Below, in pieces: positions 14,395-44,253 of a DNA stretch of 64,000 bases; the stretch's first letter is position 1; the number at the start of each line of letters is the position of its first letter. Made by a program: the position numbers and the translations under genes. The notes below the pieces were generated by a model. That model ran no database searches, had not been told where the DNA came from, and saw nothing but the letters and a program-made list of their open reading frames with translations. The stretch comes from a bacterium. GTDB taxonomy: Bacteria; Bacillota; Clostridia; Lachnospirales; Lachnospiraceae. The stretch lies in assembly GCA_028724545.1 (NCBI GenBank), contig JAQYCU010000015.1:62001-126000 (forward strand), in the 5' to 3' direction.

Positions 14395-16812
14395 ATGGCA
14401 GAAATGTACAATCACCACACAGTGGAGAAGAAATGGCAGAAAATATGGGATGATGAGAAAGCATTCAAGACAGAAAATGACTATACAAAGCCAAAGTTTT
14501 ATGCGTTGGTAGAGTTCCCATATCCTTCCGGACAGGGACTTCATGTAGGTCATCCAAGACCTTATACGGCACTTGATATTGTAGCGCGTAAAAGACGTAT
14601 GCAGGGATATAATGTGCTCTATCCAATGGGATGGGATGCGTTCGGACTTCCTACAGAGAACTACGCAATCAAAAATAAAATTCATCCAAAGGAAGTAACG
14701 AAGAAAAATGTGGCACGTTTCAAGGAGCAGTTGCATTCTCTGGGGTATTCTTTTGACTGGGACAGGGAAATTAACACAACAGACCCGGAATATTATAAAT
14801 GGACACAGTGGATTTTCTTAAAACTGTTTAAAGCCGGTCTGGCATACAAAAAAGAAATGCCGATTAACTGGTGTACTTCCTGCAAAGTTGGTCTTGCCAA
14901 CGAAGAAGTAGTAAATGGTGTATGTGAGCGTTGTGGTTCTGAAGTTGTCCGTAAAGTAAAAAGTGAGTGGATGCTTAAAATCACAAATTATGCTGATAAA
15001 TTATTAGACGGACTGAATGATGTAGATTATATTGAAAGAGTTAAAACTTCCCAGAGAAACTGGATTGGACGTTCTGAGGGTGCCGAGGTAGACTTTTCAA
15101 TTGATGGAAAAGAAGATAAACTTCGTGTATATACCACAAGACCGGATACTTTGTTTGGTGCAACATATATGGTTGTTTCACCGGAGCATCCGATTATTGA
15201 CAAATATAAAGATGAAATCACGAACTGGGATGAGATTGTGGCATACCGTGAAATGGCAGCCAAAAAATCAGATTTTGAACGTACAGAACTGGCAAAAGAA
15301 AAGACAGGTGTTGTACTGGGTGGCTTAATGGCTGTCAATCCGATTAATGATACAAAGATTCCAATCTGGATTTCAGACTATGTTTTAATGACATATGGAA
15401 CCGGTGCGATTATGGCTGTACCGGCACATGATGACCGTGACTGGGAGTTTGCAAAGAAATTTTCTCTCCCTATGATTCAGGTAGTAGAAGGAAAAGAAGG
15501 ACCGGTAGACATTAATGAAGCAGCATTTACAGATGTTGCAACCGGGCGTATGATTAATTCCGGATTCCTTACCGGACTGAGTGTGGAAGAAGCAAAAGAA
15601 AAGGTAAAAGATTTCCTGACAGAAAATAAAATCGGTAACCGGAAAGTCAATTACAAACTGCGTGACTGGGTATTCTCCAGACAGAGATACTGGGGCGAGC
15701 CTATTCCGATTGTACATTGTGAAAAATGTGGCTATGTGCCAATTGATGAAAGTGAACTTCCACTGCTTCTTCCGGAAGTAGAAAGTTATATGCCGACAGA
15801 CAATGGAGAATCTCCACTTGCTGCCATGACAGACTGGGTAAATACTACTTGTCCTTGTTGTGGTGGTCCGGCGAAGAGAGAAACCGATACGATGCCACAG
15901 TGGGCAGGCTCTTCCTGGTATTTCCTGCGTTATACAGACCCGACAAATACAGAAGCACTGGCAAGTCCGGAAGCATTAAAATACTGGCTTCCTGTTGACT
16001 GGTACAATGGTGGTATGGAGCATACAACACTTCATCTTCTGTATTCACGTTTCTGGCATAAATTCTTATATGACCAGAAAGTAGTACCAACGCCGGAACC
16101 ATATCAGAAACGTACTTCACACGGTATGATTCTGGGTGAAAATGGTGAGAAGATGAGTAAATCCCGTGGAAATGTCGTAAATCCGGATGATATCGTCAGA
16201 GAATATGGTGCAGATACCCTGCGAACATATGAGATGTTTATCGGAGCATTTGATTTAAGTGCCTCCTGGTCAGATGATGGTGTAAAAGGATGTCGTCGTT
16301 TCCTTGACCGTGTCTGGAAACTGCAGACAATTATGACAGAAGAGGAAGGATATTCCAAAGATTTGGAAATCAAGATGCATCAGACAATTAAGAAAGTAAG
16401 CAGTGATTTTGAAAACTTAAAATTCAATACAGCAATCGCTGCAATGATGTCATTAATCAATGAATTTTATAAGAAGAATGCCATTACAAAGGGCGAATAT
16501 AAGACACTGATTACCCTTCTGAATCCGGTAGCTCCTCATATTACAGAGGAACTCTGGGAGATTCTTGGTGGTGAAGGCAGATTATACCAGCAGTCATGGC
16601 CGGAATACGAAGAGGCAAAGACAGTAGAATCCACAGTAGAAATTGCCGTACAGATTAATGGTAAGACCAAAACAACAATTTCTATTGGAAAAGAAGACCC
16701 AAAAGATGATGTTCTTGCTAAGGCAAAAGAAGCATTAGGCGATAAACTTTCCGGAAATATCATCAAAGAGATTTATGTGCCGGGAAGAATAGTAAATATT
16801 GTGGCAAAATAG
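14395..16812 (+). CDS. leuS: Leucine--tRNA ligase
   Basis: An 805-residue class I aminoacyl-tRNA synthetase. The HIGH motif is HVGH (residues 50-53) and KMSKS lies at 586-590. Two zinc-type cysteine pairs (CTSC...CERC near 165-185 and CEKC...CPCC near 445-490) and the large CP1 editing domain (about 220-420, with [15 protein letters not shown]) are visible. It charges tRNA-Leu and hydrolyses mischarged products. The start is the ATG at 14395 with GAGG seven bases upstream; an in-frame upstream codon at 14347 lacks a ribosome site. It is preceded by its own promoter and followed by a structured repeat element rather than a recognisable terminator. Confidence 0.97.
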
Positions 16813-16846
16813 TTGTGCAAAAGGATATGTTTGGAGTGAGGGTGTA

Positions 16847-16994
16847 CCTGTCAGCACAGGCTTCCCTTTTCTGTCAAGGGCACGCTCTCGCTGCGCAAAC
16901 TACGCAGCAGTACATAGTATCCTGAAAAACAGGATACAAGTACTGGCGAGTTTGTAAGCACCCTTCGACAGAAAAGAAAGTCTGTGCTGACAGG
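16847..16994. repeat. Composite element copy 1, module A (long hairpin with branched tip)
   Basis: About 148 nt. Outer arms 16847-16880 and 16961-16994 are complementary apart from a bulge and a few mismatches (CCTGTCAGCACAG with CTGTGCTGACAGG, TTCTGTC with GACAGAA, AGGG with CCCT). The tip holds CTCGC...GCGAG closing two hairpins: TGCG-CAAACTA-CGCA and AGTAC/GTACT stacked on TATCCTG/CAGGATA. The loop CAAACT is also complementary to AGTTTG just after GCGAG. The same architecture recurs at 32190-32336 and 43569-43714 with different arm sequences. Orientation as RNA is unknown. Confidence 0.85.
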
Positions 16995-17199
16995 CAATCC
17001 GGTTTGCAGGTAGCAGACGATATACAGATTCTTGTTTTCAGTTATTACCTCCAGAAATCAGATGCTATGCATCTGGCGTAGCACTTTGTGCTACTCCTTT
17101 TTCTGTCGGTATCGTGCCAGGAAAAGCAAATGCCTGCTTCGCAGTCGCTTCCTTTTCCTTTGAGCACGATAACTTTTGTACAATATCCACTTTGTAAAT
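16995..17199. other. Structured spacer between modules A and B of copy 1
   Basis: Non-coding, 205 nt. It holds three further hairpins: CAGATGC-TAT-GCATCTG, GTAGCAC-TTT-GTGCTAC, and a longer one with ATCGTGC/GCACGAT and AGGAAAAG/CTTTTCCT around a CTGC-TTC-GCAG tip. These are not present in the spacers of the other two copies, so this stretch is copy-specific. Confidence 0.6.
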
Positions 17200-17346
17200 G
17201 GGCTGTGATAAAAATAGAGTTTCCTAACAGCAGCTGTTAAAGAAGCACTGGTGCTTAGTTGACGTATTTCGTCAACTTACGCACCACTGTGCTTCTTTCC
17301 AAGCGAGAGCGTGCTGCTGTAGGAAACTCTATTTTATCACATGCCC
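17200..17346. repeat. Composite element copy 1, module B (34-bp stem with internal hairpin)
   Basis: About 147 nt. The arms 17200-17234 and 17313-17346 pair almost completely (GGGC..TGTGATAAAA, AGAGTTTCCTA with TAGGAAACTCT, CAGCAGC with GCTGCTG). Inside is GAAGCAC/GTGCTTC with GGTGC/GCACC, then GTTGACG-TATTT-CGTCAAC. An unpaired AAGCGAGAGCGT precedes the closing arm and is complementary to module A. The mntP promoter begins 13 bases downstream. Confidence 0.85.
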
Positions 17347-17358
17347 TTTAATAAAAAA

Positions 17359-17387
17359 TTGACAGAAATCCCCAAATCTGCTATACT
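17359..17387 (+). promoter_or_regulatory. Sigma-A-type promoter of the mntP operon
   Basis: TTGACA at 17359-17364 and TATACT at 17382-17387 with a 17-base spacer. Initiation near 17394 places the manganese riboswitch at the very start of the transcript. Confidence 0.75.
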
Positions 17388-17393
17388 AGTCAC

Positions 17394-17541
17394 GCAATGA
17401 GGGAGTAGTTAGCGCGAAAGCGTGGCTAAGTCAACAAACTCGACCAGTGGTCTGGCTTAATCTTAAATAACAAGACTCGTGCATAGTGTAAAACTGTGCC
17501 TGAGTCTATAGAAGCAGGTGCATGTTGTACCTGCTTCTTTT
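17394..17541 (+). promoter_or_regulatory. yybP-ykoY family manganese riboswitch with terminator
   Basis: The leader begins with GAGGGAGTAG followed by a GCGCGAAAGCGT hairpin, then GTCAACAAACTCG and an AGACTCGTGC...GCCTGAGTCT hairpin. The GGGAGTAG/GTCAACA layout closely matches known mntP leaders. It ends in a 9-bp GC-rich hairpin (GAAGCAGGT 17511-17519 with ACCTGCTTC 17529-17537) and a short T-run, which looks like an intrinsic terminator. Known members bind Mn2+ and turn expression on. Downstream mntP makes the assignment strong, although I could not run a covariance model. Confidence 0.85.
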
Positions 17542-17670
17542 GGTATGAGAAAAGAAAATCAGAAAATAATAATAGAAAACAGTAGGAAATACTGCTATTA
17601 GAACACTCTGAAAAAAGAAGCAGGATACCGGTAAAACAGAAAAAAGGAAAAACAACAGGAGGAAAGAAAA

Positions 17671-19270: not shown

Positions 19271-19297
19271 TTAGCACTCTTTTCAAAAGAGTGCTAA
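19271..19297 (+). promoter_or_regulatory. CIRCE operator (perfect)
   Basis: TTAGCACTC-N9-GAGTGCTAA, an exact inverted repeat of the HrcA-binding CIRCE element, located just upstream of the htpG -35 box. Confidence 0.92.
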
Positions 19298-19305
19298 ATT
19301 TTTGC

Positions 19306-19334
19306 TTGACTTTTTGAAAAAAGAGTATTATTAT
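19306..19334 (+). promoter_or_regulatory. htpG promoter between two CIRCE elements
   Basis: TTGACT at 19306-19311 and TATTAT at 19329-19334 with a 17-base spacer. One CIRCE lies directly upstream and a second one follows the -10, so bound HrcA would cover both sides of the promoter. Confidence 0.7.
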
Positions 19335-19350
19335 AGGTTCTACAAGGTTA

Positions 19351-19377
19351 TTAGCACTCAACTTGAATGACTGCTAA
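19351..19377 (+). promoter_or_regulatory. Second CIRCE operator (one mismatch)
   Basis: TTAGCACTC-N9-GACTGCTAA, identical to the CIRCE consensus except for one base in the right half-site. It lies about 17 bases after the -10 box, in the transcribed leader. Confidence 0.85.
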
Positions 19378-19426
19378 TTGATAAAAAGAACAAAAAATAG
19401 TAAGAAATAAGATAGGAGAGATGAAT

Positions 19427-32132: not shown

Positions 32133-32220
32133 GGTACGCATTGTACCTGCCATCAAAGGCTCCCGGTTCTATCAATGGTACGCATTGTACCTGCCATCAA
32201 AGGCTCTCTGTTCTATCAAT
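32133..32220. repeat. 44-bp tandem duplication of the module A 5' arm (copy 2)
   Basis: Units 32133-32176 and 32177-32220 both read GGTACGCATTGTACCTG, then CCATCAAAGGCTC and TTCTATCAAT, with only a few differences. The second unit runs into module A; the first is a spare 5' arm without a partner. Confidence 0.85.
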
Positions 32221-32336
32221 GGTACGCTCTCGCTGCACAAACTACGCAGCAGTACATAGTATCCTGAAAAACAGGATACAAGTACTGGCGAGTTTGTAAG
32301 CACCATTTTATAGAAAAGGGAGCCTTTGACGGCAGG
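32190..32336. repeat. Composite element copy 2, module A
   Basis: Same architecture as 16847-16994, 147 nt. The arms are CATCAAAGGCTC with GAGCCTTTGACG, and AATGGT with ACCATT, so the stem is kept by different bases from copy 1. The branched core (CTCGC, CAAACTA loop, AGTAC/TATCCTG, GCGAGTTTG) is nearly identical; one stem base changes TGCG to TGCA. Confidence 0.85.
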
Positions 32337-32361
32337 CAATTCAGGTTGTGGGTGCACGCAG

Positions 32362-32581
32362 AAAACAATCGTTGAAAACCTAGCAGAACAGCCAATATGC
32401 AGATGCCGGACGAAAGTTGGAAACAATCATTGAATACCATTAGAACAGCCAACTTGCAGATACTGGATGAAAGCGAAAAACAATCATTGAAACATCAGCA
32501 GAACAGCCAATATGCAGATGCCAGACGAAAGCTGGAAAATAAATAATTGATGAATACCAGTAGAACAGCCACTATGTAAAT
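32362..32581. repeat. Tandem repeat of about 57 bp in copy 2 spacer
   Basis: Four degenerate units begin with AACAATC-type sequence near 32364, 32422, 32479 and 32537 and share AGAACAGCCAATATGCAGATG and GACGAAAGYTGG. The last unit runs directly into module B. Unit length is unlike CRISPR spacing and there is no constant repeat plus variable spacer. Confidence 0.75.
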
Positions 32582-32730
32582 GGGCTGTGATAAAACAAGA
32601 ACTTCCTAAAAAGCAGCTGTTAAACAGACACTGGTGCTTAGTGGACGTTTTATGTCCACTTATGCACCACTGTGCCTGTTTCCAAGCGAGAGCGTGCTGC
32701 TGTAGGAAGTTCTTGTTTTATCACATGCCC
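32582..32730. repeat. Composite element copy 2, module B
   Basis: 149 nt with the same fold as 17200-17346. The stem reads AGAACTTCCTA with TAGGAAGTTCT and CAAG/CTTG where copy 1 has other pairs; the internal hairpin is GTGGAC/GTCCAC where copy 1 has GTTGAC/GTCAAC. AAGCGAGAGCGTGCTGCTGT is conserved. Confidence 0.85.
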
Positions 32731-43540: not shown

Positions 43541-43568
43541 GAGAAATGTGGGCATAGGAGTTATTGAA

Positions 43569-43714
43569 CCTGACTGCATAGGCTCCTTTTTCTAATCAGG
43601 GGACGCTCGCGCTGCGCAAACTACGCAGCAGTACATAGTATCCTAAAAAACAGGATACAAGTACTGGCGAGTTTGAAGCCCCCTTTATTAGAAAAAGGAG
43701 CCTATGCAGCCAGG
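43569..43714. repeat. Composite element copy 3, first module A
   Basis: 146 nt. The arms read CTGCATAGGCTCC with GGAGCCTATGCAG, TTCTAAT with ATTAGAA and AGGGG with CCCCT. The core differs from copies 1 and 2 by CTCGCG for CTCTCG and by the loss of one pair in TATCCT, but the CAAACTA loop and GCGAGTTTG are unchanged. Confidence 0.85.
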
Positions 43715-43780
43715 CAATTCAGGTAGAGGTGTCCTAGAGAGAATGTTTTCAAAATTTGTCCAGGGTGTGATACATTCCGT

Positions 43781-43905
43781 TCTAATCAGGGGACGCTCGC
43801 GCTGCGCAAACTACGCAGCAGTACATAGTATCCTAAAAAACAGGATACAAGTACTGGCGAGTTTGAAGCCCCCATTGAATAGAAAAAGGAGCCTATGCAG
43901 CCAGG
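43781..43905. repeat. Composite element copy 3, second (5'-truncated) module A
   Basis: A duplicate of the first module with 190-bp spacing. The core and the 3' arm are complete, but the 5' arm starts only at TCTAATCAGGGG, so the outer half of the stem has no partner. The 3' arm has also diverged (CCCATTGAATAGAAA). Confidence 0.85.
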
Positions 43906-44029
43906 CAATTCAGACAGTGGTGTTAGGGGCATAATGCTGTCCTCTTTTTAGCATAAGGGGCATATGTAACCTGTAAGTTTACCCCGTGATTCTCCAAGTA
44001 AGAATATAGTGCAACAGCCAATATTGAAA

Positions 44030-44177
44030 TGGCTGTGATAAAAAAAGAACTTCCTAAAAGCAGCTGTTAAACAGACACTGGTGCTTAGTGGACGTCCTAT
44101 GTCCACTTATGCACCACTGTGTCTGTTTCCAAGCGAAAGCGTGCTGCTGTAGGAAGTTCTTTTTTTATCACATGCCC
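44030..44177. repeat. Composite element copy 3, module B
   Basis: 148 nt, same fold as the other module B copies. CAGACAC pairs fully with GTGTCTG and GTGGAC with GTCCAC. The conserved unpaired strand reads AAGCGAAAGCGTG, GAAA replacing the GAGA of copies 1 and 2. Confidence 0.85.
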
Positions 44178-44253
44178 TTCTTATGCACCACTGTGTCTGT
44201 TTCCAAGCGAAAGCGTGCTGCTGTAGGAAGTTCTTTTTTATCACATGCCCTTC
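44178..44253. repeat. Partial 74-bp duplicate of module B 3' half
   Basis: A direct copy of 44106-44179 that keeps GCACCACTGTGTCTG, AAGCGAAAGCGTGCTGCTGT and the closing arm up to CACATGCCC. It lacks the 5' half. The aminotransferase gene ends 10 bases further on. Confidence 0.85.

Follow-up and report, generated by a model that had tools for sequence, protein, structure and literature searches.

Paired changes suggestive of both selection and arm copying in a repeated hairpin of Lachnospiraceae

Covariation between the arms of a stem is commonly regarded as the strongest evidence that an RNA fold is functional. A 64-kb stretch of DNA from a bacterium of the Lachnospiraceae, which is called the window here, raises the question of whether the paired changes in a repeated hairpin reflect a selected structure or the copying of one arm onto the other. 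Three plus-strand copies of this hairpin begin near positions 16843, 32186 and 43567 (Table 1). The initial annotation claimed that compensatory base changes distinguish these copies, regarded them as evidence for a selected structure, and warned that palindrome correction during replication could also equalise the arms. Every arm pair that it quoted is present in the window. By direct reading, the three copies carry CACAG/CTGTG, CAAAG/CTTTG and CATAG/CTATG at the first site. The second site reads TTCTGT/ACAGAA and TTCTAT/ATAGAA, with TTCTAAT/ATTAGAA in the third copy, and the third site reads AAGGG/CCCTT, AATGG/CCATT and AGGGG/CCCCT. Copies 1 and 3 start approximately 30 bases past the stop codon of a plus-strand open reading frame (ORF), and for copy 2 a duplicated left end lies approximately 15 bases, and the full copy approximately 60 bases, past an ORF stop.

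Table 1. Positions of the hairpin copies in the window and of the structural parts of copy 1
Feature	Position	Strand	Remark
Copy 1, module A hairpin	16843..16997	+	Inserted directly after leuS stop codon
Outer stem, 5' arm within model	16860..16880	+	Pairs with 16961-16975; outermost stem reaches 16847
Conserved 11-nt 5' bulge CACGCTCTCGC	16881..16891	+	
Mini-helix, 5' side	16892..16894	+	Pairs with 16958-16960; from covariation, absent from model structure
Inner stem, 5' side	16896..16923	+	One-base bulge, AG bulge 16906-16907, ATA side 16914-16916 of internal loop
7-nt terminal loop GAAAAAC	16924..16930	+	
Inner stem 3' side, AA side of internal loop and mini-helix 3' side	16931..16960	+	
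Module B, partner hairpin of copy 1	17195..17352	-	Model match 17206-17334, 84.5 bits; one composite insertion with module A
Copy 2, A type	32186..32348	+	Duplicated left end ~32138-32181
Partner hairpin of copy 2, B type	32569..32730	-	Model match 32588-32717
Copy 3, A type	43567..43718	+	
Second A copy in tandem, 5'-truncated	43788..43909	+	Fourth A copy of window
Partner hairpin of copy 3, B type	44027..44252	-	Model match 44036-44164; then duplicated half-copy

The hairpin is approximately 150 nt long. In copy 1, an inverted repeat (16847-16869 and 16972-16994) has 23-nt arms that are 87% complementary at a spacing of 102 nt, and the segment from 16840 to 17000 folds at -87.1 kcal/mol versus -42.1 +/- 3.9 kcal/mol for its shuffles (z -11.6). 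A covariance model of 129 positions and 36 pairs, to which this genome contributed 15 sequences and sister species 5, recognises modules A and B alike, with B on the opposite strand, and the two modules are thus homologous hairpins. Copies from this genome and from foreign genomes share the same fold. Conservation is concentrated in the bulge CACGCTYNCGC, the AG bulge, the ATA/AA internal loop and the terminal loop, and the stem sequences vary. The window's genome has 71 occurrences of the bulge motif CACGCTCNCGCT and none of its reversed control. The terminal loop has 7 nt in 184 of 205 distinct sequences, and 145 of these 184 loops match RNAANAC, with the inverted form matched by a single one. 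Rfam searches gave no match at the gathering threshold for the 64-kb window, only three microRNA families far below their cut-offs (E 0.07-0.6) for 16800-17560, and no match at E<=0.5 for five other loci.

Several smaller observations concern this architecture. Half-arm duplications of hairpin ends directly adjoin full copies at 32138-32181 and 44180-44252, similar ones are found at many loci of the same genome, and they may have been left by slippage or by partial insertion. At three other loci, module A is nested in module B's outer stem, forming a mosaic of the two hairpins. A kissing contact between the A bulge and a complementary B bulge was considered and rejected, because the two bulges of copy 3 (CTCGCGCT and CTTTCGCT) do not covary.

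The initial annotation had also proposed that copies from related genomes be aligned and examined for covariation, and the larger alignments bear out strong covariation. Three of them were fitted to the model structure: A2 (this genome, 83 distinct rows), A3 (the genus, 56 rows) and A4 (66 rows, mostly from other genera). Covariation scores were 0.566 for A2 versus 0.196 +/- 0.007 in shuffles, a control that ignores relatedness, 0.816 versus 0.226 for A3, and 0.741 versus 0.201 for A4, and a slid-partner control reached at most 0.143. Relatedness was taken into account with our own R-scape-like script, which is distinct from R-scape and whose null reshuffles substitutions along the tree. By this test, 1 of the 36 modelled pairs was significant among 40 module A copies of the same genome. 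A2 yielded six significant pairs, including 4 of the 36 modelled, and A4 yielded 26, including 22 of the 36. When 174 pooled rows were used (the remainder of 197 after a 93% identity filter), 36 pairs were significant, of which 30 are among the 36 modelled pairs, six are unmodelled, and none is in conflict with the fold.

Four of the six unmodelled pairs extend the outer stem, and the other two (33-99 and 34-98) form a mini-helix beside the 11-nt bulge, where they are 87% and 85% Watson-Crick, respectively, with four pair types each. Because the mini-helix is absent from the model structure, its covariation is not explained by model fitting. Furthermore, the two pairs lie between the 11-nt bulge and an internal loop, and since arm copying would erase these loops, they count for selection. 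With our script, therefore, covariation was found at pairs where it is not expected from arm copying.

Mismatches offer another means to separate the two processes. Among 148 intact sequences (those of the 205 distinct rows with at most one transversion mismatch), 4758 cells comprise 4605 Watson-Crick pairs, 48 G.T, 64 A.C and 41 others, and thus G.T does not exceed A.C overall. The far outer stem has 31 G.T versus 55 A.C and the pairs near the bulge have 27 versus 7, a difference with a Fisher p of 2e-5. In all these counts, cells stand for sequences rather than events, and the helices were grouped post hoc. In the per-helix count, which leaves out the columns less than 60% Watson-Crick (2 of 36), the inner helix (36-41) shows 28 G.T versus 46 A.C, opposite to the expectation for RNA. 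The 3-bp helix has 4 versus 5, the tip helix 4 versus 6, and the 6-bp helix 27 versus 16, with most of the latter count contributed by one column. At pair 32-100, U.G is present 97 times, U-A 68 times and A.C not at all. The T hardly varies, so this pair shows polarity rather than covariation. A control with 8 tRNAs gave 12 G.U and no A.C among 173 cells, which is a weak comparison because the tRNA finder itself prefers G.U.

Changes between close relatives point in the same two directions. Starting from 193 sequences and 57 sister pairs, the 31 pairs with at most 20 differences were used. In these, the far outer stem underwent 25 both-arm and 69 one-arm changes. The both-arm changes include 17 transversions and 8 transitions, and they cluster, with 5 in adjacent pairs versus 1.4 after shuffling (4 of 500 shuffles). 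The near-bulge, inner, 6-bp and tip helices together have 18 both-arm changes, of which 16 are transitions and 2 transversions, without clustering. The transition to transversion proportions of the two groups differ at a Fisher p of 4e-4. We read the changes in the far outer stem as arm copying and those in the core as stepwise compensation.

The proposals of the initial annotation can be judged accordingly. Where arms have been remade complementary by copying, covariation says little about selection, and the sites beginning with CACAG and TTCTGT, which lie in the far outer stem, are therefore weak evidence for it. The site read as AAGGG, AATGG or AGGGG lies beside the bulge and is better evidence than the other two. 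A selected structure is thus supported for the core by the larger alignment, the transition-rich changes and the mini-helix, but not by two of the three sites originally put forward. Likewise, the concern about palindrome correction was justified for the long outer stem, with its transversions, clustering and fewer G.T than A.C, but it seems not to extend to the core, where changes are mostly transitions and unclustered. It seems that the core is held in shape by selection and that the long outer stem is matched mostly by arm-to-arm copying.

The hairpin is abundant and widespread within one family. DNA searches of the window's genome found 57 places matching module A (E below 1e-11 for 45) and 70 matching module B, and the covariance model found 77 matches. 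It is present in 25 of 28 genomes of the genus. In broader samples, for which the best 8-11 candidates per genome were scored and the counts are lower bounds, it was found in at least 99 of 299 family genomes, representing at least 98 of 298 genera, and in at least 10 of 391 genomes of the class, all ten of which are labelled as the same family or the window's own. DNA queries, which would miss diverged copies, found no match in phage, plasmid and viral collections. The hairpins are intergenic and often directly follow a stop codon. The loci examined contain 34 pairs of neighbours separated by less than 700 nt, of which 30 are plus-minus (head-to-head), 3 plus-plus, 1 minus-minus and none minus-plus (tail-to-tail). 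Copies in a sister genome, G014, are mostly single hairpins.

Comparisons of insertion sites and flanks suggest mobility. At the leuS site, where 22 loci of sister species containing the 3' end of leuS were read for 493 to 1500 bases past the gene, none of the 22 has a model match at E<=1, and the window's own locus has two. Six hairpin-free loci show the leuS stop followed by a promoter-like TTGACA or similar sequence and a shared leader. In G014, a pattern search found the terminal repeat TAGGYRATTGCGAAACT on both sides of the hairpin at 18 of 30 loci, and 10 of these 18 have direct repeats of 10-16 nt, 5 of them exact, as counted without a shuffled control. This terminal repeat also borders the hairpin in a genome of another genus, where 4 of 10 loci show apparent duplications by eye. 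The copies in these two genomes thus lie inside short inverted-repeat elements with apparent target duplications of 10-14 bp. In one more genome the surrounding repeat is a different one, and the hairpins within it again form a head-to-head pair. In the window's genome, the composites are without these terminal inverted repeats, and 23 that were examined gave no convincing target duplication (2 at shuffled p<=0.05, as by chance).

Also present in G014, at five loci, are short mini-elements with the same terminal repeats and no hairpin core. No autonomous copy was seen when the terminal repeats were searched in one genome and 16 stretches of G014 were read, the latter containing short elements only. 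One locus (L068:1713-2629) holds two small ORFs between B-type and A-type half-hairpins, as if they were the cargo of an element. It was considered as an autonomous element and set aside, as the two ORFs (143 and 105 aa) are without a Pfam match.

Gene context was evaluated for 108 matches, selected manually with regard to flank length and so as to avoid duplicates (53 of the 69 in one match set, 25 from other loci of the genus, and 30 of the 44 in G014). With crude ORF calls, 70 of these lie between co-directional genes, 56 in sense and 14 in antisense orientation (p 4e-7). One hairpin is located between ORFs that we take to be plsY and gpsA. When all 44 matches of G014 were considered, orientation follows the replichore, as guessed from the matches themselves, in 32 of 37. 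Here 24 sense matches run with the replichore, 3 antisense matches run against it, and 1 runs with it yet is antisense to the genes. The orientation bias is thus confounded with replication direction, and transcription and replication are not separable as its cause.

These findings are probably best accounted for by a mobile palindromic element whose folded core is conserved and strand-specific. The hairpin, which occurs in up to tens of copies per genome, would be a non-autonomous mobile palindrome of the Lachnospiraceae. Selection for the plus-strand fold would keep the pairing, loops and bulges of its core intact, and the arms of its outer stem would repeatedly be made complementary by template switching or gene conversion. 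Its spread may depend on carriers with terminal inverted repeats and target duplications of 10-14 bp, moved by a putative transposase. A putative protein might read the folded core, either in transcribed RNA or in the lagging-strand template while this is single-stranded DNA. A possible but less probable reading is that of a cis-acting mRNA element involved in processing, stability or antitermination that hitch-hikes in several unrelated mobile carriers. The predominance of the sense orientation between co-directional genes, the carriers that differ between genomes, the U.G polarity of core pairs and the A-rich loops are all consistent with such a role, but the orientation bias fits replication direction as well, no Rfam relative was found in the searches above, and the hairpin is missing at the leuS site of sister species and is thus not needed there. 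Rather unlikely, in our estimation, is an as yet undescribed structured RNA class, in which a bulged hairpin or three-way junction with fixed loops would act in cis in mRNAs and be spread by several unrelated carriers, its outer stem freely rewritten by arm copying and its core under stepwise compensatory selection.

A purely mutational origin, by which template switching would keep the arms complementary everywhere with no selection on the fold, is improbable. The missing overall excess of G.T over A.C and the transversion-rich, clustered both-arm changes of the outer stem speak for it, and PMC8794818 raises the possibility that compensatory changes in rRNA stems arise instantaneously by template switching. 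The outer stem resembles that case in having both-arm changes without wobble intermediates that cluster in neighbouring pairs, but differs in that a repeated mobile element, rather than rRNA, is concerned and only its outer stem is affected. Speaking against this origin are bulges and loops that stay constant in sequence, length and orientation across many genera, the mini-helix that covaries between bulge and internal loop, the transition-rich changes of the core, and the predominance of G.T over A.C next to the bulge. More improbable still is a REP- or REPIN-like element that is moved as a folded single strand by a REP-associated Y1 (HUH) transposase. REP, REPIN and BIME sequences are short palindromes of 20-40 nt according to PMC3116915, PMC2817692 and PMC3733652, and the last of these describes a foot tag of GTAG or CGTC. 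Many intergenic hairpin copies per genome, inverted (here head-to-head) pairs and conserved unpaired bases are shared features, and orientation that follows the guessed replichore would also fit. However, the hairpin is far larger (129 positions in the model alone) and has an 11-nt bulge and several loops, and some carriers show target duplications. Moreover, Y1_Tnp (PF01797) does not co-occur with it: 50 of 99 hairpin-bearing genomes encode this family, as do 120 of 200 others (odds ratio 0.68, p 0.14), and of the 30 genomes with at least ten matches only 16 do so. On these counts a REP/RAYT link was set aside. That the copies are ordinary intrinsic terminators is very hard to credit: they are strong hairpins directly past stop codons, but their long bulge and loops are conserved, no T run follows the arm, they are present between co-directional genes, and they come as composite insertions of 500 bp.

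The favoured mobile element is also comparable to the enterobacterial RU-type and other bacterial MITEs which, in PMC2759123, are small non-coding mobile sequences of 100-170 bp. In two genomes the carriers resemble these, with inverted repeats at their ends and apparent target duplications. Unlike those MITEs as described there, the hairpin core is common to carriers with different ends and to copies without such ends, and its loops are conserved over approximately one-third of the sampled genera of the family. PMC3733652 makes no mention of Firmicutes, Clostridium, Lachnospira, Roseburia or Eubacterium. In the literature searched, which covered few subscription papers, no description of this hairpin repeat was found. 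Integron attC sites also have variable stems and conserved extrahelical bases and act as folded single strands. The present hairpin differs from them in that no cassette array was seen and that conservation falls on the middle and tip, not on the foot.

One hairpin, in hundreds of copies, therefore holds covariation of both mutational and selected appearance, and the two regimes can be separated by wobble polarity, the share of transitions, clustering and isolated pairs. The sampled genera of Lachnospiraceae that carry it, approximately one-third, are common gut bacteria, and the hairpin may influence how sequences downstream of many genes are expressed.

Two further features were observed near the first copy. 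The segment 17385-17560 is a leader ahead of an mntP-like gene (Pfam Mntp), with a motif GAGGGAGTAGTTAGCG...GGCTTATTCTTAAATAACAAGACTC that is common to sister species and that in one of them precedes an ORF resembling a sodium/calcium exchanger. It has no metal-riboswitch match in Rfam at E<=1, five sister loci have no match to any family at E<=0.1, and the leader is possibly a diverged or unlisted metal riboswitch. Farther downstream, at 19271-19377, two 27-nt repeats, TTAGCACTC...GAGTGCTAA, lie ahead of a large ORF at 19421 and presumably represent a CIRCE-like operator.
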